From Rubellimicrobium sp. (lineage in GTDB: Bacteria > Pseudomonadota > Alphaproteobacteria > Rhodobacterales > Rhodobacteraceae), in assembly GCA_020852925.1 (NCBI GenBank), contig JADYZU010000028.1, positions 1 through 64,000 of the forward strand: a stretch of DNA of 64,000 bases, read 5' to 3'. The first letter of the stretch is position 1; each line of letters opens with the position of its first letter. The notes beneath the pieces were generated by a model. That model searched no databases. It was given only the letters and a program-made list of their open reading frames with translations, and was not told the origin of the DNA. Made by a program: the position numbers and the translations under genes. Below are positions 38,355-53,663 of this stretch, one piece after another.

Positions 38355-38574
38355 TGCCGGTCTTTCCCCTCGCATCACGCTGCGGTTAGCGGTTGCCCGG
38401 CCATCAGGTCAAGCACTTGGCCCATCTTCTGGCATCACATTGCGGCAATTGCCATCCTCTGCCCGTCTGGATGGGAATGGGGCCATTGTGCGGGTTCATG
38501 CCATCTGCCCGCAGCGGCGGAAACCTGATAGGATCGGTCCCACGTCGCCCCCTGCCCCAGCCGAGGACATGATC

Positions 38575-39387: not shown

Positions 39388-39398
39388 ACCGGCCATGC

Positions 39399-39878
39399 TC
39401 AGCAGGAGGGATAGCCCATCCGGATGAGTTCGGCGCCGCTCAGCCGGGAATAGTCCGATCCGCTGCGGTAACGCGGGCCTTCCATGAACCAGTTGCGCAG
39501 CGGCGGCGCATAATGGCGGGCCATCACCGCCGTCCAGCGCTCGAAATCGGCGCCGCCCAGCGGACGGCCGTCCCGTGTCGGCCCGTGAATGCCGAAGGTG
39601 GTGCGCGGGCTGACGCAGACATCGCCCACGCCCAGATACCTGGTGCAGGCGGACAGGCAGATGCTGCCGCGGATCTCGACCCGGATCCGGGCCTGGCGCA
39701 GGCCCTCGATCTCGGAGGCGCGGGCGCCGACCATGCCGCCGCGGTCGTCCCCGACGATGAGAACCCCCGCCACCTGCCCCAGCGCCGGCAGCGCGGCCAC
39801 GGTCAGGGTCAGGCCCGCCACAAGGGCAAGCCCGACCCGGCGCACGGCCACGCGGCCGCGCGATACGGTCTTGAACAT
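39399..39878 (-). CDS. Small exported protein with ClpP-like fold (COG3904-like)
   Basis: The 159-residue protein has a basic N-terminus and hydrophobic signal (about 1-35). The stretch EIRGSICLSACTRYLGVGDVC, split here as EIRGSIC and LSACTRYLG, followed by TTFGIHGP, resembles periplasmic ClpP/crotonase-fold proteins where the Ser of SAC is the presumed nucleophile and the His of GIHGP a partner. Proteolysis has not been shown for this group as far as I know. I use the ATG at 39878; GGGAGA lies upstream. The gene is convergent with the TIM barrel gene with 11 bases between the stops. Confidence 0.6.
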   Translation of the reverse strand: MFKTVSRGRVAVRRVGLALVAGLTLTVAALPALGQVAGVLIVGDDRGGMVGARASEIEGLRQARIRVEIRGSICLSACTRYLGVGDVCVSPRTTFGIHGPTRDGRPLGGADFERWTAVMARHYAPPLRNWFMEGPRYRSGSDYSRLSGAELIRMGYPSC

Positions 39879-40022
39879 TCCGGTCTCCCACACACCGGTG
39901 AGAGACCGGCACCATGCCGGATCAGACCCACCGTTCCCGCGAGGCAGGAGACACGACAGACGCTAAGGAACGGTTGAGGTTAGAATTTTCCGGATTCCAT
40001 CCGGACAGGACGCATGAAAAGT

Positions 40023-40043
40023 GCCGCATCACCCGGATGCGGC
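40023..40043 (-). terminator. Terminator after the aldolase-dehydrogenase gene
   Basis: Seven-base stem GCCGCAT/ATGCGGC with a 7-base loop, followed on the minus strand by ACTTTTC, 29 bases beyond the gene's stop. Confidence 0.5.
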
Positions 40044-40071
40044 CCCTGTCCGGGCAGGCCGGGCGCGCGCT

Positions 40072-42132
40072 TCAGCGCAGCGCCGCCTCGATATTCCCGC
40101 CGTCCACCGTCATCACATGGCCGGTGGTGCGTTCGGCGCGCGCCAGCATGACAAAGGCATCGGCGACATGGCGGGCCTCGACCTCGGCGTGCAGCAGGTT
40201 GCCGGCCATGTAGGTGCCCTCGTCCACACCGCGCGCCGAGGACCGCGCCGCGATCATGCCGGGCGTGAGCAGGCCCGACCGGATGCGATCGGCGTTGATC
40301 CCGTTCACCCGCACCCCTTCGCCCCCGAGTTCAAGGGCAAGTTGCCGCAGGAGGAAGAAGGTGGTCGCCTTGGGCAGGCCATAGGCGGCAAAGCCCTTGC
40401 CGGGGTTCACCGCCTGTTTCGACACGTTGAACAGGATCTGCCCAGGTTCGGCCCCGCGGACACCACGCGCGCCGCTCTGGGTGCGGAACGTGGCCGCCGC
40501 CGCCTGGGCAAAGGCGAAATGGGCAAAGAAGTTCAATTCGAAGCTGTCACGCAGCACCTGTTCGGGCAGGGTCGCCACATCGCCGGTCATCGCCGCGCCC
40601 GCGTTCGACACCAGGATGTCGAGCCCCCCGAACCGCGCCACGCAGGCCGCCACCGCCGCGGCCGCCGCCCCCGGCCCGGTGATGTCGCAGCCATGGCCGC
40701 CGTGGTCGCGCCCCAGCGCCGCCAGCGCGGCATCAAGTGCCTCTCCGGGCCGGTCCACCAGGAACAGCGTCGCCCCCTGCGCCGCAAAGGCGCGCGCCGT
40801 CGCCAGCCCGATCGCCCCGGCGCCGCCCGTCACCAGCACCACGCGGCCCTGAAGCGCGGGCGGCTTGCCCTTGCCCAGCTTGGCCTGTTCCAGCGACCAG
40901 TATTCCATGTCGAAGAGATCGGCCGGCCCGATGGGGTGGAACCCGCCCACTGCTTCGCCATCGGCGCGCACGCGGGCGGACTGGCCGCCGATATCGGCCG
41001 CGATCCGCGCGGCGGCGGCAGTGGCGCCCACGCCGACGATCCCCGCCCCCTCGAGCCAGACAAGCCCCGGCATCGGCGAAAGCATGGTCCGCGGCCCCGC
41101 GGCAAGCGGGGCGTGGCTGTCGAAATAGCGCCGGTAGTCCGCGGCAAAGGCCGCGACGGCGGCGCGCATCCCCTCGGGCGTCTGCGCCCCCGCGCGCAGC
41201 ACGAGCGGCCAGCCCTTGGTGCGGATGACGTGATCGGGCGTGGCCACGCCGCGGGTCGCCAGATCCTCGAGATCCGGCCGCGCGACAAAGGCGCGCTCGC
41301 CCGCGCCCGCGCGCAGGTCGAGAACCGGCAACGCCGCCCCCTCGGGCAGGACCGAGGCAAGCGCGCCGCGCAGCCCGGCCAATACCGGCGCGCTCTCTGC
41401 CGCCGGCAGCGCCGCCGCCGGACGCAAGGGCGCGGGGCGGCGGTCGGCCAGCCAGGATTCGACCAGGTTGGTGTGGTCGATGATCCGGTCATAGGACGCC
41501 TTCGCATCCGGCCCCCAGGCGAAATGCCCGTGGTTGACCAGCAACAGCCCCTCGGCCTCGGGATTGCACTCGAACGCGTCGGCCGCGGCCTTGGCCAGGG
41601 CGAAACCCGGCATGACATAGGGCACCAGCGTCAGCCGGTCGCCAAAGAGTTCGCGCGTGGCGTCCGCGACTTCGGGCAGGTTGGCCAGCACCAGAAAGGC
41701 GGTCGCATGGGTATGATCGACATAGCGATGCGGGATCCAGGCGTGCAGCAGCGTCTCGACCGAAGGGTTGGGCGCCGACGGGTCGAGCAGGTTCAGCCGC
41801 TGCACGTTCACCATCGCCTCGTCCGACAGCGCCGGCAGCGCCCGCAGCCGCATCAGCGGCGCCAGCCGCACCGCCGGCAGGCCCGCGGCCTCGATCACCT
41901 CGAGATCCCAGCCCGAGCCCTTGATGTGGAGCACCTCCACCTCCTCGCCGAACACATCCGTGGCGGTGGACTTGAGCGAGGTATTGCCCCCCCCGTGCAT
42001 CACCAGATCGGGGTCGCGCCCGATGAGGCGCGAGGTCAGCACTCGCAGCGCCAGTTCCCGCGCGCGCGGATCGCCGCCGGCCGCCTGCTGCATGGCAAGG
42101 GCCTCGGCCTCGGTCCAGAGATTTGCGATCAT
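40072..42132 (-). CDS. Bifunctional class II aldolase / short-chain dehydrogenase fusion
   Basis: The 686-residue protein fuses two enzymes. The N-terminal part (about 1-390) is a class II sugar-phosphate aldolase with VMHGGGNTSLK, the phosphate/zinc-site ETLLHAW, the zinc ligands in HTHAT and NHGHFAWG. The C-terminal part (about 430-686) is a short-chain dehydrogenase with TGGAGAIG, SNAGAAM and the catalytic YGLPK. The family includes rhamnulose-1-phosphate aldolase/dehydrogenase fusions that make DHAP plus an aldehyde and then oxidise the aldehyde. Beside MtnK and MtnA a likely substrate is 5-(methylthio)ribulose- or 5-deoxyribulose-1-phosphate, as inference. L-rhamnulose-1-phosphate remains the alternative, but no rhamnose isomerase or kinase is present. 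It diverges from the sorC-type gene. Confidence 0.85.
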   Translation of the reverse strand: MIANLWTEAEALAMQQAAGGDPRARELALRVLTSRLIGRDPDLVMHGGGNTSLKSTATDVFGEEVEVLHIKGSGWDLEVIEAAGLPAVRLAPLMRLRALPALSDEAMVNVQRLNLLDPSAPNPSVETLLHAWIPHRYVDHTHATAFLVLANLPEVADATRELFGDRLTLVPYVMPGFALAKAAADAFECNPEAEGLLLVNHGHFAWGPDAKASYDRIIDHTNLVESWLADRRPAPLRPAAALPAAESAPVLAGLRGALASVLPEGAALPVLDLRAGAGERAFVARPDLEDLATRGVATPDHVIRTKGWPLVLRAGAQTPEGMRAAVAAFAADYRRYFDSHAPLAAGPRTMLSPMPGLVWLEGAGIVGVGATAAAARIAADIGGQSARVRADGEAVGGFHPIGPADLFDMEYWSLEQAKLGKGKPPALQGRVVLVTGGAGAIGLATARAFAAQGATLFLVDRPGEALDAALAALGRDHGGHGCDITGPGAAAAAVAACVARFGGLDILVSNAGAAMTGDVATLPEQVLRDSFELNFFAHFAFAQAAAATFRTQSGARGVRGAEPGQILFNVSKQAVNPGKGFAAYGLPKATTFFLLRQLALELGGEGVRVNGINADRIRSGLLTPGMIAARSSARGVDEGTYMAGNLLHAEVEARHVADAFVMLARAERTTGHVMTVDGGNIEAALR

Positions 42133-42186
42133 CGTCGACTCCTCGGTTGCGCGGTGCGGGGTCGCAGGGCATTCTTCCGCTCGACT

Positions 42187-42215
42187 TTTCTACTTTTGTC
42201 ACCTATGTCTGTCAA
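42187..42215 (-). promoter_or_regulatory. Promoter of the aldolase-dehydrogenase gene with overlapping operator-like repeats
   Basis: The minus strand has a perfect -35 TTGACA (42210-42215), a 17-base spacer and -10-like TAGAAA (42187-42192). On the plus strand the same stretch reads TTTGTCA (42195-42201), TATGTC (42204-42209) and TGTCAA. Related words occur between mtnK and the ABC operon, so a regulator, most simply the SorC-type protein encoded next door, may bind both. Confidence 0.55.
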
Positions 42216-42236
42216 ACGTCCAGAACGGGAACCGGG

Positions 42237-43208
42237 ATGAACGGAACTGCGCGGCGCCGCAATCGGGCGCAGACAAGCGGAGAGAATGCGGTCATCCAGG
42301 TCGCCTGGATGTATTATCAGGACGGCCGCAACCAGCAGGAGATCGCCCAGACGCTGGGCATTTCCCGCGCCACGGTGGTGAACTACCTTCAGGAGGCCCG
42401 CGAACAGGGCCTGATCCGCATCACCCTTGCCTCGCCCGCCTTCACCACGCATCGCCTTGCGATCGAACTGACCGAACGCTTCGGCCTGACCGCAGCCTAT
42501 GTCGTCCCCGACGAGGGGGTCGACCTCGAAGCGGCGTTCGTGCGTGTGGTGCGCGGCGCGGCGCTGTGGCTGCCGGAGCTTCTGTCACCCGGCGACCGGC
42601 TGGGCGTGGCCTGGGGGCGCACGGTGCATGACCTGGCCGAGGCGCTCGAGACGCGGCCGGTGCCGGACATGACGGTGCTGCAACTGGTCGGCTGCATGGC
42701 GACGCCCTATGGTTTCACCGCCGAAGCCTGTTCGACGCTGCTGGCGCAGCGGCTGAACGCGCGTTGCCTGAACCTGCACGCCCCGGCGATCCTCAGCCGC
42801 ACCGCCCTGGCCGAGGCCCTGCGCGAGGAGCCGATCCTCAAGGCCCAGCTCGATCAGCTCGAGACGGTGAACAAGCTGCTGTTCTCGGTCGGGACGGCGA
42901 CGCAGGACAGCCATATCGTGCTGAGCGGACTGGCGACGCAGGAAGACCTGGAATGGTATGTCGCGCATGGCGCGGTCGGCGTCATCTGCGGCCGGTTCAT
43001 CGACGCCGAAGGCCGCCCGCTTCCCGGCCCGATGGAAGAGCGGATGATCGGCATTCCCCTGGCGCGGCTGGTCGGACTCGAGATGGGGATCCTCGTCACC
43101 CCCGGCCTTGACAAGCTGGAGGCGACCCGGGCCGCGATCCGGGGCGGCTATGTCACGCATCTGGTGACGGGAACGGGCGTGGCCGAGGCCCTGCTGGCCA
43201 CGCCCTGA
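42237..43208 (+). CDS. SorC-family sugar-binding transcriptional regulator
   Basis: The 323-residue protein has an N-terminal helix-turn-helix (about 18-62: AWMYYQDGRNQQEIAQTLGI then SRATVVNYLQEA) and a C-terminal SorC effector domain that binds phosphorylated sugars (about 75-320) with LGVAWGRTVHDLA, LVGCMATP, FSVGTA and GVICGRFID. SorC proteins usually respond to a pathway sugar phosphate, here perhaps the product of MtnK or MtnA. It is divergent from the aldolase gene and convergent with mtnA with 3 bases between, in the centre of the locus it is likely to control. Confidence 0.88.
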   Translation: MNGTARRRNRAQTSGENAVIQVAWMYYQDGRNQQEIAQTLGISRATVVNYLQEAREQGLIRITLASPAFTTHRLAIELTERFGLTAAYVVPDEGVDLEAAFVRVVRGAALWLPELLSPGDRLGVAWGRTVHDLAEALETRPVPDMTVLQLVGCMATPYGFTAEACSTLLAQRLNARCLNLHAPAILSRTALAEALREEPILKAQLDQLETVNKLLFSVGTATQDSHIVLSGLATQEDLEWYVAHGAVGVICGRFIDAEGRPLPGPMEERMIGIPLARLVGLEMGILVTPGLDKLEATRAAIRGGYVTHLVTGTGVAEALLATP

Positions 43209-43211
43209 GGA

Positions 43212-44315
43212 TCAGGCCGCCGCGGCGGCCTTGAGATCGGCGAACATCGCCGACATCCCCGATTCGGTCGCCGGGCACAGGCCGCGTTCGGTCAGAAGCC
43301 CGGTGACGAGTTCCGCCGGCGTCACGTCGAAGGCCGGGTTGCGGGCGGGCGTGCCGTCGGGGGAAATCTGCACGTTCCGGATCGTGCCGTCGCTGGCGCG
43401 GCCCTGCACCTGGGTCACTTCGGTGCCGCTGCGTTCCTCGATCGGGATTTCCTTCACGCCGTCATGCACGCGCCAGTCGATGGTGGGCGAGGGCAGGCCG
43501 ACATAGAAGGGGACGCCGTTCGCCCGTGCCGCCAGCGCCTTGAGATAGGTGCCGATCTTGTTGCAGACATCGCCGCGCGCGGTGGTGCGGTCGGTGCCGA
43601 CGATCACCATGTCCACTTCGCCGTGCTGCATCAGATGGCCGCCGGCATTGTCCACGATCAGGTCATGCGGAATCCCGTGCGAGTTCATCTCCCATGCCGT
43701 GAGTTGCGCGCCCTGATTGCGCGGGCGGGTCTCGTCGACAAAGACATGGACGGGGATGCCCGCCTCGTGCGCATGATAGATCGGAGAGGTGGCGGTGCCC
43801 CAGTCGACGGTGGCCAGCCAGCCCGCGTTGCAATGCGTCAGGATGTTCACCGGGCGGCCGCCCTTGCGGGCCGCGATCTCGCGGATGATCTTCAGGCCAT
43901 GAAGCCCGATCTGGCGGTTGATCTCCACATCCTCGTCGCAGATTTCCGCCGCCCGTTGTGCCGCAGCCGCCGCGCGCATCGCGGGGGGCAGCGGGGCGAG
44001 GGTGCGGTGCATCTCGTCCAGCGCCCAGCGCAGGTTGATCGCGGTCGGGCGCGTCTCGTGCAGCACCTCCCAGGTCTCGGCCAGCGAGGCGTCGGACGGA
44101 TCGGCCTCCATCTGCACCGCCACGCCCCAGGCGGCGGTGGCCCCGATCAGGGGGGCGCCGCGCACCCACATGTCGCGGATCGCGGTGGCGAATTCGGCGC
44201 GGTCGCGCAGCGGAACGATGCGCAGTTCATGCGGCAGCCAACGCTGGTCGATCACCTGCACGGTGCCTGAACCGTCACGCCAGATGGTGCGATAGGGTGT
44301 GCCGTCGATCTTCAC
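43212..44315 (-). CDS. mtnA: S-methyl-5-thioribose-1-phosphate isomerase
   Basis: MtnA converts 5-methylthioribose-1-phosphate to 5-methylthioribulose-1-phosphate, and can also take 5-deoxyribose-1-phosphate. The 367-residue protein has the eIF2B-like fold with the catalytic cysteine in [10 protein letters not shown] and aspartate in [19 protein letters not shown]. It starts with GTG at 44315, 9 bases after AAGGAG, and overlaps the mtnK stop (GTGA), so kinase and isomerase are made together. Confidence 0.94.
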
Positions 44316-45577
44316 AGGTGGTTCTCCTTGTCCATCCGCCGCGCCATGGCGATCACCGCATCCATGCCATGGATCGCCCCCGCCCCCAGCATGAGCTGCC
44401 GTCCCATCGCCAGCGTGCGCGCCTCGCATTCGGCACGGCGCCCCTCGTCGGCGATCTTCTCGAAATCGGCATTATGCGCCAGGCTGAGGATGCGGCGGTG
44501 CATCTCGATCCCGCAAAAGCCCAGCGTGTCGCGCCACACCTGCCCCAGCACGTCCGACAGCGCCTGTTCCGAGGCAAGGGCATGGCCCTGATCCTCGTAG
44601 AGGCTGGCCTGATGCAGGATGCCGCGCCGCTCGCTGCGCCACAGATGCGCGAATTCGGCGGCGAACACCTCCCAGATGGTGGCGGCGGTCCCGAGCAGCC
44701 AGTCCTGATGCCCGGCACGTTCCCCGGCATGGCCCTCGTGGCCGGGCTGGCTGAAATAGGCCATGAGGAAGTTGCCGATGAGCATGCCCACATCGAAGCC
44801 GATCGGCCCGTAGGTGGCGAATTCCGGGTCGATCACCCGCGTCTCGGTGCCGGTCACCATGACGGACCCGGTGTGCAGGTCGCCGTGCAGCAGGGTCTCG
44901 GCCCGGCTGGTGAAGGCCATCTTCAGATGCTGCGCCGCCACCTTGAGCGACAGATCCCCCCGCAACCGCGCCACGATCCCGTCAAGGCCGGGCGTGTGGC
45001 GGTTCATCGGCGCGTCGAAATAGGGGTCGGAAAAGATCAGGTTCTCGGTGATGTCGCACAACTCGACATTGCCGGCGAACAGCGCGGTATCCGCCTTCTT
45101 TGCCGGCGCGGGCAGCGACAGGTCGGATCCCCGGAACAGCGTGCGCGCGCAGAACAGGCCAAGGCGTTCGCCCAGATCGGCCACCCGCCGCCCCTCGATC
45201 AGAGCCTGACGCAGGATCACATGCGGCTGGAGGAACTCCATCACCACGATCGCCTGCGCCTCGTCAAAATGGAACACTTCGGGGACAGAGCCCGGATCGC
45301 GCGCCTCCTGACGGATGAGGGCGTTGTATTCGAAGAACGACCGCCTGAGCGGCAGGGGCCAGCTTTCGCCCACCAGCCGCACATAGGGCAGCGCCTGCTT
45401 CACCACCGCGGCGCCGTTCGCGCCCTCGACGATGAAGACAAGGTTGAGGTTGCCATCCCCGACCTCGCGCACCTTCCAGCCCTCGGCCGGCCCGACGCGT
45501 TCGGCCAGTTGCGGCAACGTCCCGAGGCGCTGCGCCAGCGTGTCCGGCGTCAGCGCAACATAGTCCTGTGCGGTCAT
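44312..45577 (-). CDS. mtnK: 5-methylthioribose kinase
   Basis: MtnK phosphorylates free 5-methylthioribose at C1. The 421-residue protein has the choline-kinase-like fold with GDGNLNLVF near the N-terminus, the catalytic loop [13 protein letters not shown] and the metal-binding [16 protein letters not shown]. The ATG at 45577 has GGGGAGGAG upstream; the longer frame has no family match. A kinase acting on the free sugar, together with the neighbouring importer, suggests uptake of methylthioribose or a related 5-deoxy sugar rather than internal recycling only. Confidence 0.94.
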
Positions 45578-45630
45578 CCACTCCTCCCCGGCAGGGCTGT
45601 TTCGGGCAGGATTTCCGCAAAAGCGGCATA

Positions 45631-45670
45631 TGTCAAATGTTATTGACAAATGACGACAGGCGGGTAGCGT
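45631..45670 (+). promoter_or_regulatory. Divergent promoter/operator between mtnK and the ABC operon
   Basis: A perfect inverted repeat TGTCAA-N6-TTGACA (45631-45636, 45643-45648) lies here. The right arm is an ideal -35 for the ABC operon, with a 16-base spacer to TAGCGT (45665-45670). The left arm is an ideal -35 for mtnK on the other strand. A regulator on this repeat would control both directions. TATGTC (45629-45634) and TGACAAA (45644-45650) recall the sequence in front of the aldolase gene. Confidence 0.55.
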
Positions 45671-45694
45671 GGCATCGGGAAAGGGAGAGCCCGC

Positions 45695-47209
45695 GTGCCG
45701 TCAGCAGCAGTCACCATCCGCGGCCTGACCAAGGCCTTTGGCCGCAACACCGTGCTTCGCGGGGTCGATCTTGACCTGCCCCCCGGTCAGGTGACGGTCC
45801 TCATGGGCGCGAACGGCGCCGGGAAATCGACGCTGGTCAAGGTGCTTTGCGGGGTCCACCGCGCCGATTCGGGCGAGGTGCGGCTGACGGGCGAACCCTT
45901 TGCCCCCGCGGATCCGGCCGCGGCGCTGCGCGCGGGCATCGTCACCGTGCACCAGAACATCAACGACGGGGTCGTGCCCGATCTCGACGTGGCGTCGAAC
46001 CTGCTGCTCGATTCGCTGGCGGGGGGCGGGGGCACCTTTCTCAACACCCGCCGCATGCGGGCCGAGGCCCGGCAAATCGCCGCGGCGGTGGGCCTCGACC
46101 TTGACGTGACGCGGCAGGTGTCGGGACTTGCCCTTGCCGACCGTCAGCTTGTCGCCATCGCCCGCGCCATGGCGCAGCGCCCCAAGCTCCTGATTCTGGA
46201 CGAACCCACTTCCTCGCTCTCGATGGCCGAGGCCGAACGCCTGTTCGCCCTCATTGACCGGCTGCGCGCCGATGGTGTGGCGATCCTCTACATCTCGCAC
46301 CGCATGTCGGACATCCGCCGCCTTGCCGACCGCATCGTGTCGATGCGCGACGGCCAGATCGCCGACCTGTTCGAGAGCGCGCCCCTCGATTACGCGGGGG
46401 CGGTGCGGGCGATGCTCGGGCACGAGATCACCGAGGTCGATATCGCCATCCCCGAACAGGGGCGCCCGGTGCTGCGCGCGCGGGGACTGCGCCTGCGCCC
46501 GGAATCGCGGCCCTTCGACCTGACGCTTCATGAGAACGAAGTGGTGGCGATCACCGGGCTGGTCGGTTCGGGCAAGTCGGCGCTGGCCGGCGTCCTTTAC
46601 GGGCTTGCCCGGCCCGAAGCCGGCGAGATCACGCTGGACGGGCGGCCCCATGCGCCGGTCAACCCCGGCGCGGCGGTGGCGGCAGGCGTGTTCCTTGCCT
46701 CGAAGGACCGGCGCAGCAATGCCGTGATCCCCGATTTCGACATCCAGAAGAACCTGACCCTGCCCTTCACCGCGCGGCATTCGGGGTTCCTGTCGCTGTT
46801 GCGGCGGGCATCGGAACGGGTGACGGCCGACCGCAGCATCCGCGAGATGGGCGTGGTCTGCCAGGGGCCGCGCGACGGCATCATGACGCTGTCGGGCGGC
46901 AACCAGCAAAAGGTGGTCGTCGGCCGCTGGATGGCCGAGGCCTCGCGCCTGCTGATCCTTGACGAACCGTTTCAGGGCGTGGACATCCAGGCCCGCCGCG
47001 ACATCGGCCGGCGCATCCGCGACAGTGCCGGCACCCGTGCCACGCTGGTGCTCTGCGCCGAGATCGACGAGGCGCTCGAGGTCGCGGACCGCATCCTCGT
47101 GATGAGCGAGCACACCATCGTCGGCGAACACCGCAATGACGGCATCGACCTTGGCCGCCTCATGGCCGAGGTCGCCGGAACCGCCCTGACACTGGAAAGA
47201 ACGGCATGA
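45695..47209 (+). CDS. Sugar ABC transporter ATP-binding protein (two NBDs, RbsA-like)
   Basis: The 504-residue ATPase has two fused nucleotide-binding domains, as in ribose-type (CUT2) importers. Domain 1 has Walker A GANGAGKST, a degenerate signature SGLALADRQ and ILDEPTSSLS. Domain 2 has Walker A GLVGSGKSA, signature LSGGNQQKVVVGRW and ILDEPFQGVD. The start is a GTG at 45695 with AAGGGAGAG before it. It overlaps the permease gene by 4 bases. Beside mtnK and mtnA it is probably an importer for 5-methylthioribose or a similar pentose, as inference. Confidence 0.9.
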   Translation: MPSAAVTIRGLTKAFGRNTVLRGVDLDLPPGQVTVLMGANGAGKSTLVKVLCGVHRADSGEVRLTGEPFAPADPAAALRAGIVTVHQNINDGVVPDLDVASNLLLDSLAGGGGTFLNTRRMRAEARQIAAAVGLDLDVTRQVSGLALADRQLVAIARAMAQRPKLLILDEPTSSLSMAEAERLFALIDRLRADGVAILYISHRMSDIRRLADRIVSMRDGQIADLFESAPLDYAGAVRAMLGHEITEVDIAIPEQGRPVLRARGLRLRPESRPFDLTLHENEVVAITGLVGSGKSALAGVLYGLARPEAGEITLDGRPHAPVNPGAAVAAGVFLASKDRRSNAVIPDFDIQKNLTLPFTARHSGFLSLLRRASERVTADRSIREMGVVCQGPRDGIMTLSGGNQQKVVVGRWMAEASRLLILDEPFQGVDIQARRDIGRRIRDSAGTRATLVLCAEIDEALEVADRILVMSEHTIVGEHRNDGIDLGRLMAEVAGTALTLERTA

Positions 47210-48216
47210 AGCCTGCAAACTCCCTGACCGATCTGGCGATCCGCTACGGTTTCCTTGTCCTGATGGCAGGGCTGATCGTGGTGTTCTCGATCGCCAAGCC
47301 CGCCTTCATGTCGCCGCAAAGCGGGGTCTTCATCCTTCAGTCGGTGGCGATCACCGGCATCCTTGCGCTGGGCGTCACCGCGACGCTGGTGGTGGACGGG
47401 TTCGACCTGTCGATCGGCTCGGTCGCCACGTCGGCGCTCATGCTGTCGGCCTATGTGCAGGTGATCTGGGGCCTTGGCGCGGTCGAGGCGGTGGTGCTCT
47501 GCCTTGCGATGGGGGCGGTTGTCGGGCTGGTCAACGGGTTGCTCATCGTCAAGATGAAGGTGCCCGATCTGCTGGCCACGCTGGGCATGATGTTCCTGCT
47601 GGTCGGGCTTCAGCGCATCCCGACCGAGGGCAATTCCATCTCGACGGGCATGGTTCTCAAGGACGGAACCACGGCGACCGGCACCTTCTCCGAGGCGTTT
47701 CTCATGCTCGGCCGGCACCGGATCGACTTCATCCTGCCGGATCTGGTGCCGCTGTCGGTGGTCTTCCTTCTGGTCATCGCCGTGCTGATCTGGGTGTTCT
47801 TCGAACGCACGCGGCACGGGCGGGTGATGTATGCGATCGGCTCGAACGCGCAGGCGGCGGCGCTGGCGGGAATCAACGTCTCGGGTTACCGCATCCTTGC
47901 CTATGTGATTTCCGGGGTCATGGCCTCGTTCGGGGGCGTCCTTCTGGCGGCGCGGCTGGGGCGGGGCGACGTGGCCTCGGGCAACAACCTGCTGCTCGAT
48001 TCGGTGGCGGCGGCGCTCATCGGCTTTGCCGTCCTCGGCGCGGCCAAGCCCAACGCCTTCGGCACCGCCATCGGCGCGCTCTTTGTCGGCATCCTGCTTC
48101 AGGGGCTGACCATGCTGAACGCGCCCTATTACACGCAGGACTTCATCAAGGGCGCGGTTCTTGTCGTCGCGCTCGTCTTCACTTTCGCGCTGTCGGCGCG
48201 CAGGGGGCGCGGCTGA
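47206..48216 (+). CDS. Sugar ABC transporter permease (RbsC-like)
   Basis: The 336-residue membrane protein has about eight to ten helices and the CUT2 permease pattern: GFDLSIGSVATSALM, GLVNGLLIVKMKVPDLLATLG, MYAIGSNAQAAALAGINV and the C-terminal LNAPYYTQDFIKG. It probably forms a homodimeric channel with the double ATPase encoded upstream (4-base overlap). The binding-protein gene follows after 47 bases. Confidence 0.9.
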   Translation: MKPANSLTDLAIRYGFLVLMAGLIVVFSIAKPAFMSPQSGVFILQSVAITGILALGVTATLVVDGFDLSIGSVATSALMLSAYVQVIWGLGAVEAVVLCLAMGAVVGLVNGLLIVKMKVPDLLATLGMMFLLVGLQRIPTEGNSISTGMVLKDGTTATGTFSEAFLMLGRHRIDFILPDLVPLSVVFLLVIAVLIWVFFERTRHGRVMYAIGSNAQAAALAGINVSGYRILAYVISGVMASFGGVLLAARLGRGDVASGNNLLLDSVAAALIGFAVLGAAKPNAFGTAIGALFVGILLQGLTMLNAPYYTQDFIKGAVLVVALVFTFALSARRGRG

Positions 48217-48263
48217 GGCCGGCCCGGATCACGAAACGACTCATCGGAGAAAGGGAGGATACC

Positions 48264-49304
48264 ATGATCTCCAGACGGACCTTCGGCATGCTTCTGGGCA
48301 GCGTCGCGCTGATCCCGGCCGTGGCGCGCGCGCAGGCGACGCCGCCGGCGCCGCTCGACAATCCCGGGCAGGTGACCATCGCCCTCGTGCGCTACCTGTC
48401 CACCGGCGACTTCTTCCAGGCCTATCTCTCGGGCGTGGAAAAGCAGGCGGCCGCGCTTGGCGTCAATCTCCAGGTGTTCGACAGCCGGCAGGATGCCGCG
48501 CTGCAGGCCGACATGGTCGATCAGGCGATCGCGCTCGGGGTGCAGGGCATCATCATCCAGCACGGCCTGACCGAATCCATGAAGGAGGCCGCCCAGCGCG
48601 CGGTCGATGCCGGGATCAAGGTCGTCGCCTTCGACGTGAACGTCGAGAACGACGCCATTCCCCAGATCGAGCAATCGGACCGCGACCTTGCGCGCCTCGC
48701 GCTCGAGGCGGCGCTGGCCGACAACGGCAACGAATTCGTCGCGGGTTACGTCTATGTCCCCGGCATCGCCCCGCTCGACCGCCGCGACGAGACCTGGCGC
48801 GAAGTGAAGGCCGCCAACCCCGGCATCAACGAAGTGGCGATGTTCGGCACCCTCGACAACCCGATCGCGAACTCGGTCGCCAACCAGGCGCGCGCGGTGC
48901 TGTCGGCCAACCCGAACATCACCGTCGTGTTCGCGCCCTATGACGAATTCGCCAAGGGCGTGAAGATCGCCGTGGACGAGGCCGGCATGTCCGGTCAGGT
49001 GTCGATCTATGCGGCCGACATCTCGACCGCCGACATCGCGCTCATGCGCGAGCCGGGGTCGAGCTGGAAGGCCACCGCCGCCACCAACCCCGCCGTGGTG
49101 GGCGAGGTGTCGGTGCGCGCGCTGGCCATGATGCTGGCCGGAGAGGATCCGGGCCACAACGTCATCGTGCCGCCCACCCTGATCACCCAGGCGATGCTGA
49201 ACGAACTCGACATCAGCAACATGGAGGAACTGGGGGCCAAGCTTCCGGCCTTCGCCCATGCCGATGTCGTCGTCCCCGAGTGGATGCCGCTGCCGGCGCG
49301 CTGA
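48264..49304 (+). CDS. Sugar ABC transporter substrate-binding protein
   Basis: The 346-residue protein has a twin-arginine-like start (SRRTFGMLLGSVALIPAVARA, signal about 1-25) and a type I periplasmic-binding fold as in RbsB: VTIALVRYLSTGDFFQAYLSG, VFDSRQDAALQADMVDQAI, GIIIQHGL, DAGIKVVAFDVN, VVFAPYDEFAKG. It is the ligand-sensing part of the importer. Two strong hairpins follow it (49317-49373), which often stabilise the mRNA of binding-protein genes so that they outnumber the membrane parts. Confidence 0.9.
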   Translation: MISRRTFGMLLGSVALIPAVARAQATPPAPLDNPGQVTIALVRYLSTGDFFQAYLSGVEKQAAALGVNLQVFDSRQDAALQADMVDQAIALGVQGIIIQHGLTESMKEAAQRAVDAGIKVVAFDVNVENDAIPQIEQSDRDLARLALEAALADNGNEFVAGYVYVPGIAPLDRRDETWREVKAANPGINEVAMFGTLDNPIANSVANQARAVLSANPNITVVFAPYDEFAKGVKIAVDEAGMSGQVSIYAADISTADIALMREPGSSWKATAATNPAVVGEVSVRALAMMLAGEDPGHNVIVPPTLITQAMLNELDISNMEELGAKLPAFAHADVVVPEWMPLPAR

Positions 49305-49316
49305 TCCCGCTGCCGG

Positions 49317-49332
49317 CCGCCCTGCCGGGCGG
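49317..49332 (+). other. mRNA hairpin 1 after the binding-protein gene
   Basis: Stem CCGCCC/GGGCGG with a 4-base loop, 13 bases beyond the stop. With the next hairpin it fills the 112-base gap before the first transketolase gene. Confidence 0.4.
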
Positions 49333-49350
49333 TCGGCCCCGTCTGCTGTC

Positions 49351-49373
49351 ACGGGCCGGTCATTCCGGCCCGT
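49351..49373 (+). other. mRNA hairpin 2 before the transketolase genes
   Basis: A perfect 9-base stem ACGGGCCGG/CCGGCCCGT with a 5-base loop. No T-run follows, so it is more likely a stabiliser or a partial block that lowers expression of the downstream enzymes than a full terminator. Confidence 0.45.
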
Positions 49374-49416
49374 GGCCATCTGTCTGCCTGCTGCCGTCGC
49401 CGAAGAGGAGAAACCG

Positions 49417-50349
49417 TTGCGCAACGAACGAACCACCGAGGAAATCGCCCACGGCATCCGTGCGCGCGTCTTCGAACACACGATCCGCAACAACGGCGGC
49501 TATCTGAGCCAGGCCGCCTCGGCGGCGGAACAGCTCGCCTTTCTCTACAACGAGGCGCTGAACCTTGGCCCCTCGACCATGCCGATGGTGCCGCCGCCCT
49601 TTGCCGGCGTGCCTTCGGCCTCGAACCACGACTACCGCACCGGCGCGGGCTACAACGGCCCGTTCGACGCGGTGCACGACCGGCTGTTCATCGCCCCCGC
49701 GCATTACGCGCTTGTCGCCTATGCCTGCCTCATCGAAGTGGGCCGCATGGCGCCCGAGGGCCTCGAGATGTTCAACAAGGACGGCTCCTCGGTCGAGATG
49801 ATCGGCGCCGAACATTCGCCGGGGATGGAGGTGCACAACGGCACCCTCGGCATCGGGCTGTCGACCGGCGCGGGCCTGGCCTGGGGGCGCAAGCGCAAGG
49901 GTGACACCGGCGAGGTCTGCGTCTTCATGTCCGACGGCGAGGTGCAGGAGGGCCAGACCTGGGAGGCGGTGCAGGCCGCCGCCCATCACGGGGTCGACAA
50001 TCTCTGGGCGATCATGGACGTGAACCGCCAGCAATGCGACGGCGCCATGGACAGCGTGATGACCGTGGGAGACATCGCCACCAAGCTGCGCAACTTCGGT
50101 GCCGTCGTGGCCGAGGTGGACGCCCATGACATCCCCGCCCTGCGCGAGGCCAGGGCCACCCCGCACGAGGGGCGCCCCCTCATCATCCTGGCGCATTCGA
50201 GCCCGACCCAGGGCATGGATTTCCTCATGCGCCGCTTTCCGCGGCTGCATTACGTCCGCTTCAAGACCGAGGAGGAGCGCGCCGAGATGAACATCGCCAT
50301 CGCCGCGGAACTGGGCATCGAACCTGTCGATCTGGGCGGAGGGCACTGA
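49417..50349 (+). CDS. Transketolase-like protein, N-terminal (thiamine diphosphate) half
   Basis: The 310-residue protein corresponds to the first third to half of a transketolase. The ThDP motif is MSDGEVQEGQTWEA followed by MDVNRQQ, with Ser in place of the first Gly of GDG. HSPGMEVHNGTLGIGLSTG (substrate and cofactor loop) and HYALVAYACLIEVG are typical. I start at a TTG at 49417, 6 bases after GAGGAG; there is no ATG in the right place, and the frame upstream is not family-like. Its partner is the next gene, whose start is 2 bases after this stop. The pair is a split transketolase, as in apulose-4-phosphate transketolase and other two-subunit forms. Confidence 0.88.
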   Translation: MRNERTTEEIAHGIRARVFEHTIRNNGGYLSQAASAAEQLAFLYNEALNLGPSTMPMVPPPFAGVPSASNHDYRTGAGYNGPFDAVHDRLFIAPAHYALVAYACLIEVGRMAPEGLEMFNKDGSSVEMIGAEHSPGMEVHNGTLGIGLSTGAGLAWGRKRKGDTGEVCVFMSDGEVQEGQTWEAVQAAAHHGVDNLWAIMDVNRQQCDGAMDSVMTVGDIATKLRNFGAVVAEVDAHDIPALREARATPHEGRPLIILAHSSPTQGMDFLMRRFPRLHYVRFKTEEERAEMNIAIAAELGIEPVDLGGGH

Positions 50350-50350
50350 C

Positions 50351-51355
50351 ATGGTGGAAATGGTCAATCGCCCCTACGCGCGCGCCTTCGAATCCTACGC
50401 GGTGCAGCATCCCGAAGTGCTCTGCCTGTCGGCCGACCTCACCTCGAGCTGCGAGATCGACGGTTTCCGTGATCGTCACCCGGATCAGTTCCTCTCGCTC
50501 GGCATGGCGGAACAGAACATGCTGAGCTTTGCCGGCGGCCTCGGCCTTGCCGGGTTCCGGCCGTTCCTGCACAGCTTCGGCGTGTTCCTCTACCGCCGGC
50601 CCTATGATCAGCTCATGGCCTCGATCGCCTATCCGCGGCGGCAGGTGCGGCTCATGGGGTTCCTGCCCGGCGTCACCACGCCCGGCGGCATGACCCATCA
50701 GGCGATCGAGGACATCGCCGTGATGCGCACGATCCCGAACATGACCGTTCTGGAAACCGGCGACGCCACCGAGGTGGAATCGGTCGTGGCCGAGGCCGAC
50801 ACCGTCGATGGCCCGGTCTATGTGCGCATCCTGCGCGGATCGGTGCCGCGCCTGTTCGACACGCCGCTGCGCATCGGACAGATGCGGGTGCTGTCCGAAG
50901 GGACCGATGTCCTTGTCGTCACCGCCGGCATCACCACCGAAGAGGCGATCCGCGCGCGCGGTGCCCTTGACCGGGCCGGGGTCTCGGTCCGGCATCTGCA
51001 TCTGAACACGCTCAAGCCCTTTGACGCGGCGCAGATCGTCGCCCATGCGCAATCGGTGCGCCACGGGGTCGTCACGCTGGAAAACCACCTTGTCGCGGGG
51101 GGTATCGGCTCCATGGTGGCCGAGGCGCTGGCCGAAGCCGGCCTTGCCCGCCGCCTGATCAGGCTTGGCCTTCAGGACACCTATGCGCATGGCGGCTCGC
51201 GCCCCTATCTCATGAAATTCTACGGGATGGACGCGCTGTCGCTGGTGCGGGCGGTCGAGCGGCTGACCGGCGAAGCGACCGGCATCGACGAGGATGCGCT
51301 GGCCGAGGCGCGCGTCGAGGCGGTGCATTCCGCGGTGAAGGCAGAGGCGCTCTGA
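50351..51355 (+). CDS. Transketolase-like protein, C-terminal (pyrimidine-binding) half
   Basis: The 334-residue protein has the pyrimidine domain (about 5-165) with the glutamate of SLGMAEQNMLSFAGGL that activates thiamine, and the C-terminal transketolase domain (about 190-315) with VLVVTAGITTEEAI and ENHLVAGGIGSMVAE. The layout is also shared with DXP synthase and E1 beta subunits. It forms one active site with the upstream half. It overlaps the RLP gene by 1 base (TGATG), so the three products should be made in similar amounts. Confidence 0.88.
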   Translation: MVEMVNRPYARAFESYAVQHPEVLCLSADLTSSCEIDGFRDRHPDQFLSLGMAEQNMLSFAGGLGLAGFRPFLHSFGVFLYRRPYDQLMASIAYPRRQVRLMGFLPGVTTPGGMTHQAIEDIAVMRTIPNMTVLETGDATEVESVVAEADTVDGPVYVRILRGSVPRLFDTPLRIGQMRVLSEGTDVLVVTAGITTEEAIRARGALDRAGVSVRHLHLNTLKPFDAAQIVAHAQSVRHGVVTLENHLVAGGIGSMVAEALAEAGLARRLIRLGLQDTYAHGGSRPYLMKFYGMDALSLVRAVERLTGEATGIDEDALAEARVEAVHSAVKAEAL

Positions 51356-52506
51356 TGCGGTTTCGCGTCACCTACCGCCTTCTTGCCGCCGACGGCCCCG
51401 AGGCGCGCAACCGCGCCGAAGGCATCGCCCGCGAACAGACGGTCGAGATCCCGCGCGACGTGATCCCGCGCGGCTATGTCCGCGACGAAATCCTGGGCCG
51501 GATCGAGGATGTGGGCCAGATCGCCGCCAGCGTGTGGGAGGCGGTCATCTCCTATTCGCCCGACAGCGCCGGGGATGAGGTGACCCAGTTCCTCAACGTG
51601 GTGTTCGGCAATTCCTCGATCCAGCAGGGCATCCGCGTCACCGCCATCGACCCCGGCGAGACCATGGCCGACCGCCTGCCGCGCCCGCGTCACGGCATCG
51701 CCGGCATCCGCAGGCTGGCCCGGCGCGAACGCGGCGCCCTCATCGCCCCGGTGCTCAAGCCGATGGGTCTGCCGCCGGACTATTTCGCCCGCATCGCCGC
51801 CGGCTGCGTGCGCGGCGGCGCCGATATCGTGAAGGAGGACCACGGCCTTGCCGGTCAGCCGGCGGCGCCGTTCCGCGCCCGCGTCGCCGCCACCGCCCGC
51901 GCCGTGGCCGAGGAAAACGCCCGCAGCGGGCGCAACGCGCTCTATTTCCCCAATCTCTCGGGCCGGCCCGAAGAGATCGCGGACAACCTGCATTTCGCCA
52001 AGGAGGCCGGCGCCCACGGGATCATCGTCATGCCGGGCCTGTTCGGTTTCGGCACGGTGGCGCGGATCGCGCAGGACGCGGCCCTTGATCTGCCGGTGAT
52101 GACGCATCCTGCCTTCCTTGGCCCCTATGTCCTGGCGCCCGATACCGGGTTCGACCACGGCACGCTATTCGGCACGATCCAGCGGCTCTCGGGGGCCGAT
52201 ATCTCGGTGTTTCCGAACGTGGGCGGACGTTTCGGCTTCAGCGCCGCCGAATGCCGCCAGATCGCCGATGCCTGCCGCGATCCCGCCGGCCACGGCCCCG
52301 CGATCCTGCCCAGCCCCGGCGGCGGCATGAGCGTGGAGCGCGCGGCCGACATGACCGCGATGTATGGCGAGGATGCCGTGCTGTTGCTGGGCGGCAGCCT
52401 GCTGCGCGACCCCGACCGCATCGGCGACGAGATCGCCCTCATGCGCGAGGCGCTGGACCGGGCCGGGAACGGGAACGGGGCCGTGGACGGTATCGGGGCC
52501 GGCTAG
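51355..52506 (+). CDS. RuBisCO-like protein (type IV)
   Basis: The 383-residue protein is a RuBisCO large-subunit homologue, shorter than true RuBisCO (about 470). N-terminal domain about 1-115 with EQTVEIP. The barrel keeps Lys135 (LKPMGL), the carbamylated-type lysine Lys160 and Asp162 (IVKEDHGL), FPNLSG, HPAFLG, FPNVGGRF and the phosphate loops PGGGM and LLGGS. RuBisCO's second lysine of KPKLGL is missing (Met, one residue shorter) and the Glu after the metal Asp is His163. Carboxylation is therefore unlikely. Known RLPs enolise or isomerise methylthioribulose-phosphates or act on oxo-isoapionate phosphate. Beside MtnK and MtnA, isomerisation of a 5-(methylthio/deoxy)ribulose-1-phosphate is my best guess. 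Confidence 0.9.
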   Translation: MRFRVTYRLLAADGPEARNRAEGIAREQTVEIPRDVIPRGYVRDEILGRIEDVGQIAASVWEAVISYSPDSAGDEVTQFLNVVFGNSSIQQGIRVTAIDPGETMADRLPRPRHGIAGIRRLARRERGALIAPVLKPMGLPPDYFARIAAGCVRGGADIVKEDHGLAGQPAAPFRARVAATARAVAEENARSGRNALYFPNLSGRPEEIADNLHFAKEAGAHGIIVMPGLFGFGTVARIAQDAALDLPVMTHPAFLGPYVLAPDTGFDHGTLFGTIQRLSGADISVFPNVGGRFGFSAAECRQIADACRDPAGHGPAILPSPGGGMSVERAADMTAMYGEDAVLLLGGSLLRDPDRIGDEIALMREALDRAGNGNGAVDGIGAG

Positions 52507-53663
52507 CCGCCCCTGCCCGCCCCCCGCGCCAGTTCGGCAGCGACGATCATGCGCTGGATGTCGCTCGTGCCTTCGTAGATGCGGCAGATCCGGGCATCGC
52601 GAAAGAGGCGCTCGGCGGCATGATCCCGCAGATAGCCATAGCCGCCCAGCACCTGGATCGCCTCTGACGCGACCCATTCCGCGCTTTCCGATGCATGAAG
52701 CTTGGCCAGCGCGGCCTCGGTCCGGCAGTCCTGTCCGGCATCGCGCAACCGCGCCGCATGGTGCAGATAGGCCCGCCCGGTCTCGAGGCGCATGCGCATG
52801 TCGGCCAGACGGAACCCGACCGCCTGATGCTCGATCAAGGCCTTGCCGAAGGTGCGCCGCTCGCGCGCATGGGCAAGCGCCAGGTCGAAGGCCGCCCGCA
52901 TCAGCCCCACCGATTGCGCCGCGATGCCAAGCCGCCCCAGTTCCAGCGTCCCCATCGCCAGCGCATAGCCCCCGCCCAAGGTGCCCAGCACATGGTCATC
53001 GGCCACGAACACGCCATCCAGCCCGACCTGCGCGGTTTCCGAGGCCGACAGGCCCAGCTTTTCCTCGATCCGCAGCACCGAATAGCCGGGCGCCCCCGGC
53101 GCGACCAGAAAGGCGGTGATGCGGCGGCGGGGATCGTCGCTGTCCACCGCGGCAAAGACGATGGCGATATCGGCGGATTTCCCGTTCGACATGAACTGCT
53201 TGGTGCCGCTCAGCCGATAGCCTCCGGCAACGCGTTCGGCCCGCGTGGCAAGGGCGAATGCGTTCGATCCCGCCTCGGGTTCGGTCAGGCCGAAGGCCCC
53301 CATCATCCGCCCCCGGGCCAGCGGCCGCAGGTAACGCTCCTGCTGCATCGGCGTGCCGTGCCGCAGGAGCGGGTTCAGGACAAGGCCGTTGTGCAGCGCC
53401 ATCATCGCCCCGATGCTGCCGTCGGCGGCAGCCATCTCCTCGATCGCCATGACATAGCTCAGGTGATCGGCGCCCACCCCGCCCAGCGCCTCGGGCACGA
53501 GCATGCCAAGAAACCCCTGCGCGCCCAGCGCCTGCATCTCCTCGTGCGGGAAGGCCCCTGACCGGTCGCGCGCGGCGGCGCCGGGGGCAATGCGCCCCTG
53601 CGCGAACGCGCGGGCGCTGTCGCGGATCATCCGCTGGTCTTCGCTCAAGAGGATGTCGTGCAT
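52503..53663 (-). CDS. Acyl-CoA dehydrogenase
   Basis: This FAD enzyme oxidises an acyl-CoA to the 2-enoyl-CoA. The 386-residue protein has GAFGLTEPEAGSNA and the FAD segment GTKQFMSNGKSADI, with AIQVLGGYGYLRDHAAERLFRDARICRIYEGTSDIQ seen in pieces (QVLGGYGYLRDH and IYEGTSDIQR); the catalytic glutamate is the one in YEGT. I use the ATG at 53663 (MHDILLSEDQ). The gene overlaps the upstream CoA transferase gene by 19 bases and ends 4 bases inside the RLP gene's stop. Chain length is unknown. Confidence 0.9.
   Translation of the reverse strand: MHDILLSEDQRMIRDSARAFAQGRIAPGAAARDRSGAFPHEEMQALGAQGFLGMLVPEALGGVGADHLSYVMAIEEMAAADGSIGAMMALHNGLVLNPLLRHGTPMQQERYLRPLARGRMMGAFGLTEPEAGSNAFALATRAERVAGGYRLSGTKQFMSNGKSADIAIVFAAVDSDDPRRRITAFLVAPGAPGYSVLRIEEKLGLSASETAQVGLDGVFVADDHVLGTLGGGYALAMGTLELGRLGIAAQSVGLMRAAFDLALAHARERRTFGKALIEHQAVGFRLADMRMRLETGRAYLHHAARLRDAGQDCRTEAALAKLHASESAEWVASEAIQVLGGYGYLRDHAAERLFRDARICRIYEGTSDIQRMIVAAELARGAGRGG

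Follow-up and report, generated by a model that had tools for sequence, protein, structure and literature searches.

A conserved gene cluster that pairs a split transketolase with a RuBisCO-like protein, and a candidate route for 5-methylthioribose catabolism

We found that a locus in Rubellimicrobium sp. carries, next to each other, genes for the activation of 5-methylthioribose (MTR), a sugar importer, a transketolase divided over two genes and a RuBisCO-like protein (RLP). We analyzed bases 1-64000 of contig JADYZU010000028.1, and we refer to this whole stretch of 64,000 bases as the window. The source genome is an incomplete metagenome-assembled genome (MAG) of 2.99 Mb that is 85% complete. 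An earlier sequence-only reading of the region from 40072 to 52506 had listed the genes there and had proposed a new pathway for MTR or 5-deoxyribose. Every gene on that list was present and open, with the boundaries that had been given.

The MTR kinase and isomerase genes lie together on the minus strand. mtnK (44312..45649) encodes a 5-methylthioribose kinase (TIGR01767, 478 bits; cut-off 275) whose relatives in the PDB are the methylthioribose kinases 2pyw and 2olc; its exact start is uncertain. mtnA (43212..44315) encodes 5-methylthioribose-1-phosphate isomerase (TIGR00512, 425; cut-off 279). It probably starts at the GTG at 44315, which would make it overlap the end of mtnK by 4 nt; the longest open reading frame reaches 44429. 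Divergent from this pair, on the plus strand, are six collinear genes. The first three encode a CUT2 sugar importer made up of an ATPase (abcA, 45695..47209; NCBIfam and Pfam profile matches), one permease (abcP, 47206..48216; profile match) and one periplasmic binding protein (sbp, 48264..49304). These are followed by the two halves of the transketolase. tktN (49417..50349) encodes the half that binds thiamine diphosphate (ThDP) (Pfam Transketolase_N; best PDB match 6yak, the N-chain of a split transketolase) and most likely starts at the TTG at 49417, behind AGGAG, rather than at 49258. tktC (50351..51355) encodes the pyrimidine-binding and C-terminal half (Transket_pyr and Transketolase_C; best PDB match 6yaj, the C-chain of a split transketolase, 2.4e-58). 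The last gene, rlp (51355..52506; RuBisCO_large), shares its first base with the end of the tktC stop codon, so the overlap between the two genes that had been noticed earlier is one of a single base. On the other side of mtnA there is a gene for a SorC/DeoR-type sugar-binding transcriptional regulator (42240..43208, plus strand; Pfam Sugar-bind, 182 bits; DeoR model, 192 bits, under its cut-off of 420) and, beyond it, one for a bifunctional fusion of a class II aldolase and a short-chain dehydrogenase (SDR) (40072..42132, minus strand; NF006192, 817.6, cut-off 639; Pfam Aldolase_II and adh_short).

The pairing of the split transketolase with the RLP was conserved. We examined 198 genomes of the family and, separately, 80 loci that are the best 80 of 177 RLP relatives from a scan of named genomes. 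The loci overlap with 13 family genomes that carry a close RLP, several of their contigs are short, and the calling of their open reading frames by GC is rough. A close RLP (at least 50% identity) was present in 14 of the 198 family genomes, the window's included, and tktN, tktC and rlp were contiguous in all 14 (the window and 13 others). Within a 20 kb stretch, 12 of these 14 had mtnK-mtnA and 11 had the importer. TktC (at least 72%) was present in 16 of the 198 genomes, among them all 14 with the RLP; the hypergeometric probability of this co-occurrence, uncorrected for phylogeny, was 1.2e-19.

The sequence-only reading had proposed a search of genome neighbourhoods as a check, and its outcome was clear. 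tktC was directly upstream of the RLP gene in 77 of the 80 loci and on the same strand in 77/77, with 3-64 nt between the aligned ends. The genomes of the three loci with no adjacent transketolase (L076, L088 and L100) hold a 74-75% identical tktC elsewhere. An mtnA family gene was found at 71 of the 80 loci, mtnK at 66, importer genes at 66 and the aldolase-SDR fusion at 54. Nine loci had no mtnA nearby; we tested four of these (L066, L069, L113 and L122), and mtnA was elsewhere in the genome in all four. On three plasmids, from Rhizobium rosettiformans, strain NT-25 and Mariluticola, mtnK-mtnA-tktN-tktC-rlp formed a single run. Based on the contiguity in the family genomes and the linkage of tktC to the RLP gene in 77/80 loci, this is not a chance juxtaposition. 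The nearest relative of the window RLP, among the best 80 of 177, was from a Rubellimicrobium MAG (81%). In a sample of 299 genomes from the phylum, TktC at E<=1e-75 was found only in the window's genome and one other of the same class, and the module thus seems to be centred on Alphaproteobacteria. With the core genes and a gene for a FucU-like mutarotase set aside, the commonest recurring gene family was at 9 of the 80 loci. The lack of a further recurrent family fits with products that enter general metabolism.

The RLP resembles those of the DeepYkr group (a name that rests on PMC5893883). Its nearest solved relative, by sequence and by predicted fold (pLDDT 88), is 3qfw from Rhodopseudomonas palustris. 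This entry is listed apart from R. palustris rlp2 (2qyg) and would be of the RLP1 type. We made a tree by a quick method, with rows chosen from the loci and with long branches for the Vibrio RLP and the outgroups. The window RLP fell in a transketolase-linked clade of 30 rows, 27 with the transketolase adjacent and 3 with it elsewhere (support 100). A separate clade of 16 rows contained cupin-linked RLPs and R. palustris 3qfw (support 100), and further transketolase-linked RLPs (from rhizobial plasmids, L165, L166 and Vibrio) branched around both clades. The transketolase-linked and cupin-linked groups have in common a GGRF motif and a His at the position of a RuBisCO metal ligand, which we take to be Glu204. 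MtnW and the remaining RLPs in the comparison have Glu there, and MtnW does not have the His/GGRF signature. Four positions differ consistently between the two groups.

The window RLP is not an MtnW enolase: it scored 108 with TIGR03332 (cut-off 513.6) and 153.4 with NF007095 (cut-off 409), and it was outside MtnW in the tree. We also considered that it might belong to D-apiose catabolism. We rejected this for the RLP on its score with the model of OiaX, 3-oxo-isoapionate-4-phosphate decarboxylase (NF042437, 67.7 bits; cut-off 700). DeepYkr RLPs of Rhodospirillum rubrum and R. palustris convert 5-methylthioribulose-1-phosphate to 1-methylthioxylulose-5-phosphate (MTXu-5P) (PMC5893883, PMC4958253), and isomerization of 5-methylthioribulose-1-phosphate by DeepYkr RLP1 has been described in vitro (PMC5893883). 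We infer that the window RLP is of the same 5-methylthioribulose-1-phosphate 1,3-isomerase type and catalyzes the same reaction. A 1-methylthio or a 1-deoxy xylulose-5-phosphate had been suggested as its product. The similarity to 3qfw, the tree and the signature agree with the isomerase assignment, and the 1-deoxy option is less favoured for the branch formed by the RLP and the transketolase.

In other lineages, the gene next to a related RLP encodes a cupin. As query we used a cupin whose best PDB match is Rru_A2000 (3jzv, 1.1e-58), which has been named as the MTXu-5P sulfurylase of R. rubrum (PMC4958253). In 385 genomes of the class we found 16 close RLPs other than the window's own. Thirteen of them adjoined a cupin, two adjoined the transketolase, none adjoined both and one was at a contig end. 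The 13 come from the cupin search, by which tree rows L171 and L174 were counted as cupin-linked, and the cupins beside them were at least 63% identical to the query. In contrast, the query matched nothing in the 80 loci or in the 14 family loci, the loci themselves being what was searched. An R. rubrum-type cupin had no match in the window's genome. That absence alone is weak, since the genome is 85% complete. Among the 198 family genomes there were weak partial matches in nine, the best being 37% over 70 aa with an E-value of 1.8e-7, and these nine included none of the 14 with a close RLP. The cupin that had been called missing at this locus thus had no match in the window's genome, the 14 close-RLP family genomes or the 80 loci. 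Together, these comparisons are strong evidence that the RLP has the split transketolase as its partner in place of the cupin, and the simplest notion is that the transketolase acts on the RLP product. Separately, a plasmid of Terrarubrum flagellatum (L201:7920-10467) has an RLP gene, a cupin gene and a gene annotated as the serine acetyltransferase cysE in a row, that is, a cupin-type shunt beside a cysteine biosynthesis gene.

We compared the active sites of 100 transketolases of this kind, many from the same genera and some from genomes represented twice, using the numbering of Escherichia coli TktA. The ThDP/metal site and the catalytic Glu were kept (Asp155, Asn185 and Glu411 in 100/100), and Arg358, Ser385, Arg520, His66 and His473 were also invariant. 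Other positions had changed. His26 was replaced by Tyr in 99 of the 100 (with one gap) and Asp469 by Gly in all. His100 was Met in 99 and Leu in one; the alignment there is uncertain by one residue, and neither place has a His. His461 fell in a gap of the alignment of the 100 and was opposite Leu in a pairwise alignment with human transketolase. The roles that we assign to the substrate residues of TktA are in part assumed; His100 presumably contacts the C1 hydroxyl of the donor. We considered the loss of His100 as a sign of a donor lacking that hydroxyl and dropped the idea: split transketolases beside unrelated genes lack His100 too. The residue changes occur in unrelated split transketolases as well, so they mark the enzyme as unusual and do not reveal its donor. 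TktC also has some similarity to DXS (154.8 bits, under the cut-off of 466), and on two plasmids tktN is annotated as a DXS N-terminal domain.

The binding protein points to MTR as the imported sugar. Its nearest solved relative is 4ry8, TLET_1677 of Thermotoga lettingae, titled 5-methylthioribose transporter solute binding protein. The phmmer E-value was 6.2e-63; a predicted model, built on 11 sequences (pLDDT 78.7), matched 4ry8 in Foldseek with an E-value of 6.5e-30, 38% identity and TM scores of 0.82/0.90. We take the ligand bound in 4ry8 to be MTR, and the likeness is one of whole-protein sequence and fold. There are thus good comparative grounds for a predicted importer substrate that is MTR or a close analogue, in line with the substrate that had been proposed. 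The FucU-like mutarotase gene was at 19 of the 80 loci, near the importer for example in L035:8906-9349 and also in L037, L039 and L042 (63 bits, cut-off 141). A mutarotase near the importer fits with uptake of a free sugar. The window's genome also encodes a phosphorylase for 5'-methylthioadenosine (MTA), with a score over its cut-off, so MtnA could receive substrate from internal MTA as well as from the imported sugar.

We found a second arrangement upstream of the transketolase and RLP genes. In L043:832-10523 (genome G002) these genes are preceded by genes for a BMP-type binding protein, a purine nucleoside phosphorylase, an amidohydrolase related to 5'-deoxyadenosine/MTA deaminases, another MtnA and a BisC-family-like S/N-oxide reductase. 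The phosphorylase and the second kind of MtnA scored over their cut-offs, and the amidohydrolase and the reductase scored under theirs. L108, L111 and L123 have similar arrangements without the reductase. That is, two upstream contexts, MtnK-MtnA and the phosphorylase, deaminase-like protein and other MtnA, converge on MtnA, the transketolase and the RLP. BisC-family-like reductases were beside the transketolase in L043, L122 and L198 (810-910 bits, cut-off 1018), and L199 has an annotated molybdopterin oxidoreductase at the same place. These neighbours indirectly favour a sugar that bears sulfur over plain 5-deoxyribose.

Taken together, we infer a route for the catabolism of imported MTR. 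The importer would take up MTR, and MtnK and MtnA would convert it to 5-methylthioribulose-1-phosphate, from which the RLP would make MTXu-5P. TktN-TktC, in the place of the cupin methylsulfurylase, would then cut MTXu-5P between C2 and C3. We put the probability of this route, taken from uptake as far as the cut made in MTXu-5P by TktN-TktC, at roughly 0.7. All of its catalytic steps in the host organism are predicted from gene content and homology, the transketolase reaction above all. Compared with the sequence-only reading, the linkage of the genes and the exchange of the cupin now stand on strong evidence and the substrate class and RLP reaction type on good evidence; 5-deoxyribose has become the less favoured substrate, given the relative of the binding protein and the S/N-oxide-reductase-like neighbours.

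The fate of the sulfur is more tentative. Cleavage would give glyceraldehyde-3-phosphate and leave two carbons, with the methylthio group attached, bound to ThDP. Here the thiolate would be beta to the carbanion and should be a good leaving group. As had been proposed, the bound unit would then most likely expel methanethiol, forming acetyl-ThDP, from which acetyl-phosphate or acetate would be released. Precedents for such elimination chemistry are the reactions of phosphoketolase and sulfoacetaldehyde acetyltransferase. It is possible, at somewhat less than even odds, that TktN-TktC expels methanethiol in this way, with MTR converted overall to glyceraldehyde-3-phosphate, acetyl-phosphate (or acetate) and methanethiol.

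The aldolase-SDR fusion probably represents a separate branch, of the type of the dihydroxyacetone phosphate (DHAP) shunt. Eight of the 198 family genomes (G003, G090, G095, G108, G112, G132, G164 and G169) have both mtnK and the fusion and lack both a close RLP and the transketolase, which argues that the fused aldolase works in parallel. It would split 5-methylthioribulose-1-phosphate, or 5-deoxyribulose-1-phosphate, into DHAP and an aldehyde. No fusion was nearby at 17 of the 66 mtnK loci (some on short contigs), and at two of these, L118 and L120, a class II aldolase is encoded on its own. R. palustris operates an aldolase branch and an RLP branch together (PMC5893883). One could guess at a division of labour in the window's host, with the aldolase serving 5-deoxyribose and the RLP and transketolase serving MTR.

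Several observations weigh against the proposed route. A parallel aldolase makes the branch through the RLP and the transketolase look redundant. The changes at His26, His100 and Asp469 are common to split transketolases in unrelated contexts and are no specific sign of a methylthio donor, and the changes on the C3/C4 side, with the residue roles that we assume, would not be explained by MTXu-5P. In the other contexts, neither the amidohydrolase nor the S/N-oxide-reductase-like proteins reach the curated cut-offs. The His163 signature is missing from the distant Vibrio RLP, and L122 has no mtnK or mtnA next to its transketolase and RLP genes, although mtnA is elsewhere in that genome. The transketolase was also found without an RLP in G109 and G029 (the G029 contig ends 0.9 kb past tktC and holds no RLP). 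On plasmids of Marinovum and Paracoccus seriniphilus, a 74-75% identical transketolase, nested within the RLP-linked group, has no RLP nearby. The RLP is thus not an absolute requirement for the transketolase.

The plasmid-borne relatives may have another source of donor. Next to the Marinovum transketolase are an AraD-like epimerase and a XylB-like kinase (262 bits, under its cut-off of 380), and Paracoccus has similarly annotated genes. If the XylB-like kinase phosphorylates O5, then both routes would deliver an analogue of xylulose-5-phosphate, which would fit such a donor. We consider it possible, with the same reserve as for the expulsion of methanethiol and jointly with it, that close relatives of TktN-TktC, supplied by the XylB-like kinase and having the S/N-oxide-reductase-like enzyme in place of the RLP, handle oxidized relatives of MTR.

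We noted the surroundings of these and other transketolases. On Marinovum algicola pMaD5 (L198:1472-10005) and the P. seriniphilus plasmid (L199:1441-11704), the transketolase genes are divergent from a regulator and accompanied by genes for an AraD-like or class II aldolase, a dehydrogenase, an FGGY kinase and a molybdopterin reductase (BisC-like in L198). Genes for a sulfatase and an importer of the sulfonate type are close to both stretches, which may encode a route for an oxidized sulfur sugar. In Pleomorphomonas carboxyditropha (L122:1170-13428), one run contains genes for a PfkB-like kinase (named by eye), a SorC regulator, a different sugar importer, the transketolase, the RLP and the BisC-like reductase. 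A conjugative plasmid of the gammaproteobacterium Vibrio nigripulchritudo (L197:9054-13673) has a distant run of tktN, tktC, RLP and FGGY kinase genes, with an RLP of 32%. More divergent split transketolases (L209:6060-7927, L210:6045-7918 and L212:6045-7930) are beside LysR regulators and oxidoreductases, the latter SDR-type in L210 and L212, which also adjoin TRAP importers; all three lack His26 and Asp469 as well.

We also weighed other explanations. TktN-TktC might cleave MTXu-5P and retain the sulfur, so that the C2 unit is released as 2-methylthioacetaldehyde or moved to an acceptor aldose, with the SDR domain or another dehydrogenase taking the aldehyde. Ordinary transketolases do pass their C2 unit to an aldose (PMC7403953), and the SDR domain of the fusion found at 54/80 loci could act on a methylthio aldehyde. 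However, no dedicated aldehyde enzyme is conserved, as the mtnK loci with no fusion nearby indicate, the thiolate should leave readily from the bound carbanion, and transfer to common acceptors would yield dead-end 1-methylthio ketoses. We regard retention of the methylthio group as rather unlikely, and as less probable than its expulsion. Less likely again is 5-deoxyribose as the main substrate, with the RLP making 1-deoxyxylulose-5-phosphate from 5-deoxyribulose-1-phosphate and the transketolase yielding glyceraldehyde-3-phosphate and a hydroxyethyl unit (acetaldehyde). MtnK and MtnA of the DHAP shunt accept both sugars (PMC10986504, PMC12632272), and the DXS-like similarity of TktC and the DXS annotation of tktN would suit such a donor. 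Set against this are the MTR-type binding protein, the S/N-oxide-reductase-like genes beside the transketolase in L043, L122 and L198 and the annotated molybdopterin oxidoreductase of L199, which point to sulfur, and a C2 unit that, with no leaving group, would need release or transfer.

It would be surprising if the transketolase and RLP served an unrelated sugar, such as one like D-apiose, and were near mtnK-mtnA only by chance. Split transketolases are reportedly part of D-apiose pathways (Carter et al. 2018), so the enzymes here might be of the OiaX and ApsAB types. None of the window proteins matched an NCBIfam model named ApsA or ApsB in the profile scan. D-apiose pathways do include RLPs (PMC6302742). 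Against this stand the OiaX score of the window RLP, the mtnA genes at 71 of the 80 loci or, for the four tested of the others, elsewhere in the genome, and the single run of all five genes on the three plasmids. There is also precedent for a transketolase that takes the deoxy sugar as acceptor: a promiscuous enzyme from Synechococcus makes 7-deoxysedoheptulose from 5-deoxyribose (PMC8102628). A 7-substituted heptulose made from the imported sugar is very improbable here, as it leaves the RLP pairing and the cupin exchange unexplained and several canonical substrate residues of the transketolase are changed. The least probable account, to which we give hardly any weight, is that nothing is new and that the DHAP shunt operates beside an ordinary MTA-isoprenoid shunt whose cupin gene is elsewhere. 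The MAG that holds the window is incomplete, and mtnK with the aldolase fusion does exist without the RLP and transketolase, yet no convincing cupin was found in the 198 family genomes and none within the stretches searched at the 80 loci. The reading that we prefer is the predicted cleavage of MTXu-5P by TktN-TktC.

Few other features were found around the locus. A scan of 38000-54000 gave no RNA elements at the gathering threshold, and a promoter scan of 42000-52800 gave none (0.9 expected). Downstream and convergent to rlp (52503-54886) are open reading frames that look like an acyl-CoA dehydrogenase and a class III CoA-transferase, and upstream (36204-38378) is one resembling a Wzc-like polysaccharide tyrosine kinase; these names were given by eye from the translations.

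MTR is a by-product of the use of S-adenosylmethionine and is excreted by some cells. If the transketolase exit is real, all five sugar carbons would return to central metabolism and volatile methanethiol would be released, and this would hold for many alphaproteobacteria and for plasmids of rhizobia. The C-S bond would be cleaved by phosphoketolase-like chemistry, and MTR could serve as a source of carbon, energy and sulfur without oxygen. A group of split transketolases would gain a concrete reaction, and the products of DeepYkr-related RLPs a second fate. The first is the RLP-cupin shunt, in which the carbon skeleton of MTR goes to 1-deoxyxylulose-5-phosphate for isoprenoids (PMC4958253). 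In the open-access literature, to which the search was confined, we found no paper that joins an RLP, a transketolase and methylthioribose or describes such a route, and none that joins an RLP, a transketolase and apiose.

The locus shares parts with several known systems. Compared to ordinary transketolases (EC 2.2.1.1), TktN-TktC has the ThDP/metal site and catalytic Glu and lacks Asp469 and some of the conserved substrate histidines, among them His26 and His100. Both D-apiose catabolism, with the RLP OiaX and what we take to be the split transketolase ApsAB, and this locus use the two enzyme kinds on a sugar; the window RLP is far under the OiaX cut-off. The two-gene architecture is that of the split transketolases of Carboxydothermus (6yak/6yaj) and of SqwGH in the sulfo-TK pathway. 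SqwGH serves a sulfur-bearing sugar and moves a C2 unit that is not sulfonated (PMC11659671). In contrast, the C2 unit handled by TktN-TktC would carry the sulfur. With the DHAP shunt (mtnK-mtnA-ald2; DrdKIA) the locus shares MtnK, MtnA, a class II aldolase domain, which may act on the same sugar phosphates, and a repressor, which in E. coli is MtnR (PMC12632272); it differs in the fusion of the aldolase to an SDR, in the ABC importer, whose binding protein belongs to the 4ry8 group expected of an MTR importer, and in the second branch through the RLP and transketolase. The closest system is the MTA-isoprenoid shunt (RLP Rru_A1998 and cupin Rru_A2000 in R. rubrum; RLP1 and a cupin in R. palustris), which also passes the MtnA product to a related RLP, one that carries the same signature, and in which the predicted intermediate is also MTXu-5P (PMC4958253, PMC5893883). 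MtnA and a DeepYkr-group RLP are present here, whereas the cupin MTXu-5P methylsulfurylase that defines the shunt is not, and the partner of the RLP is the split transketolase. The importer and MtnK indicate catabolism of an external sugar, beyond internal salvage alone. We regard the locus as a new form of RLP-dependent methylthioribose metabolism, in which a split transketolase has replaced the cupin.

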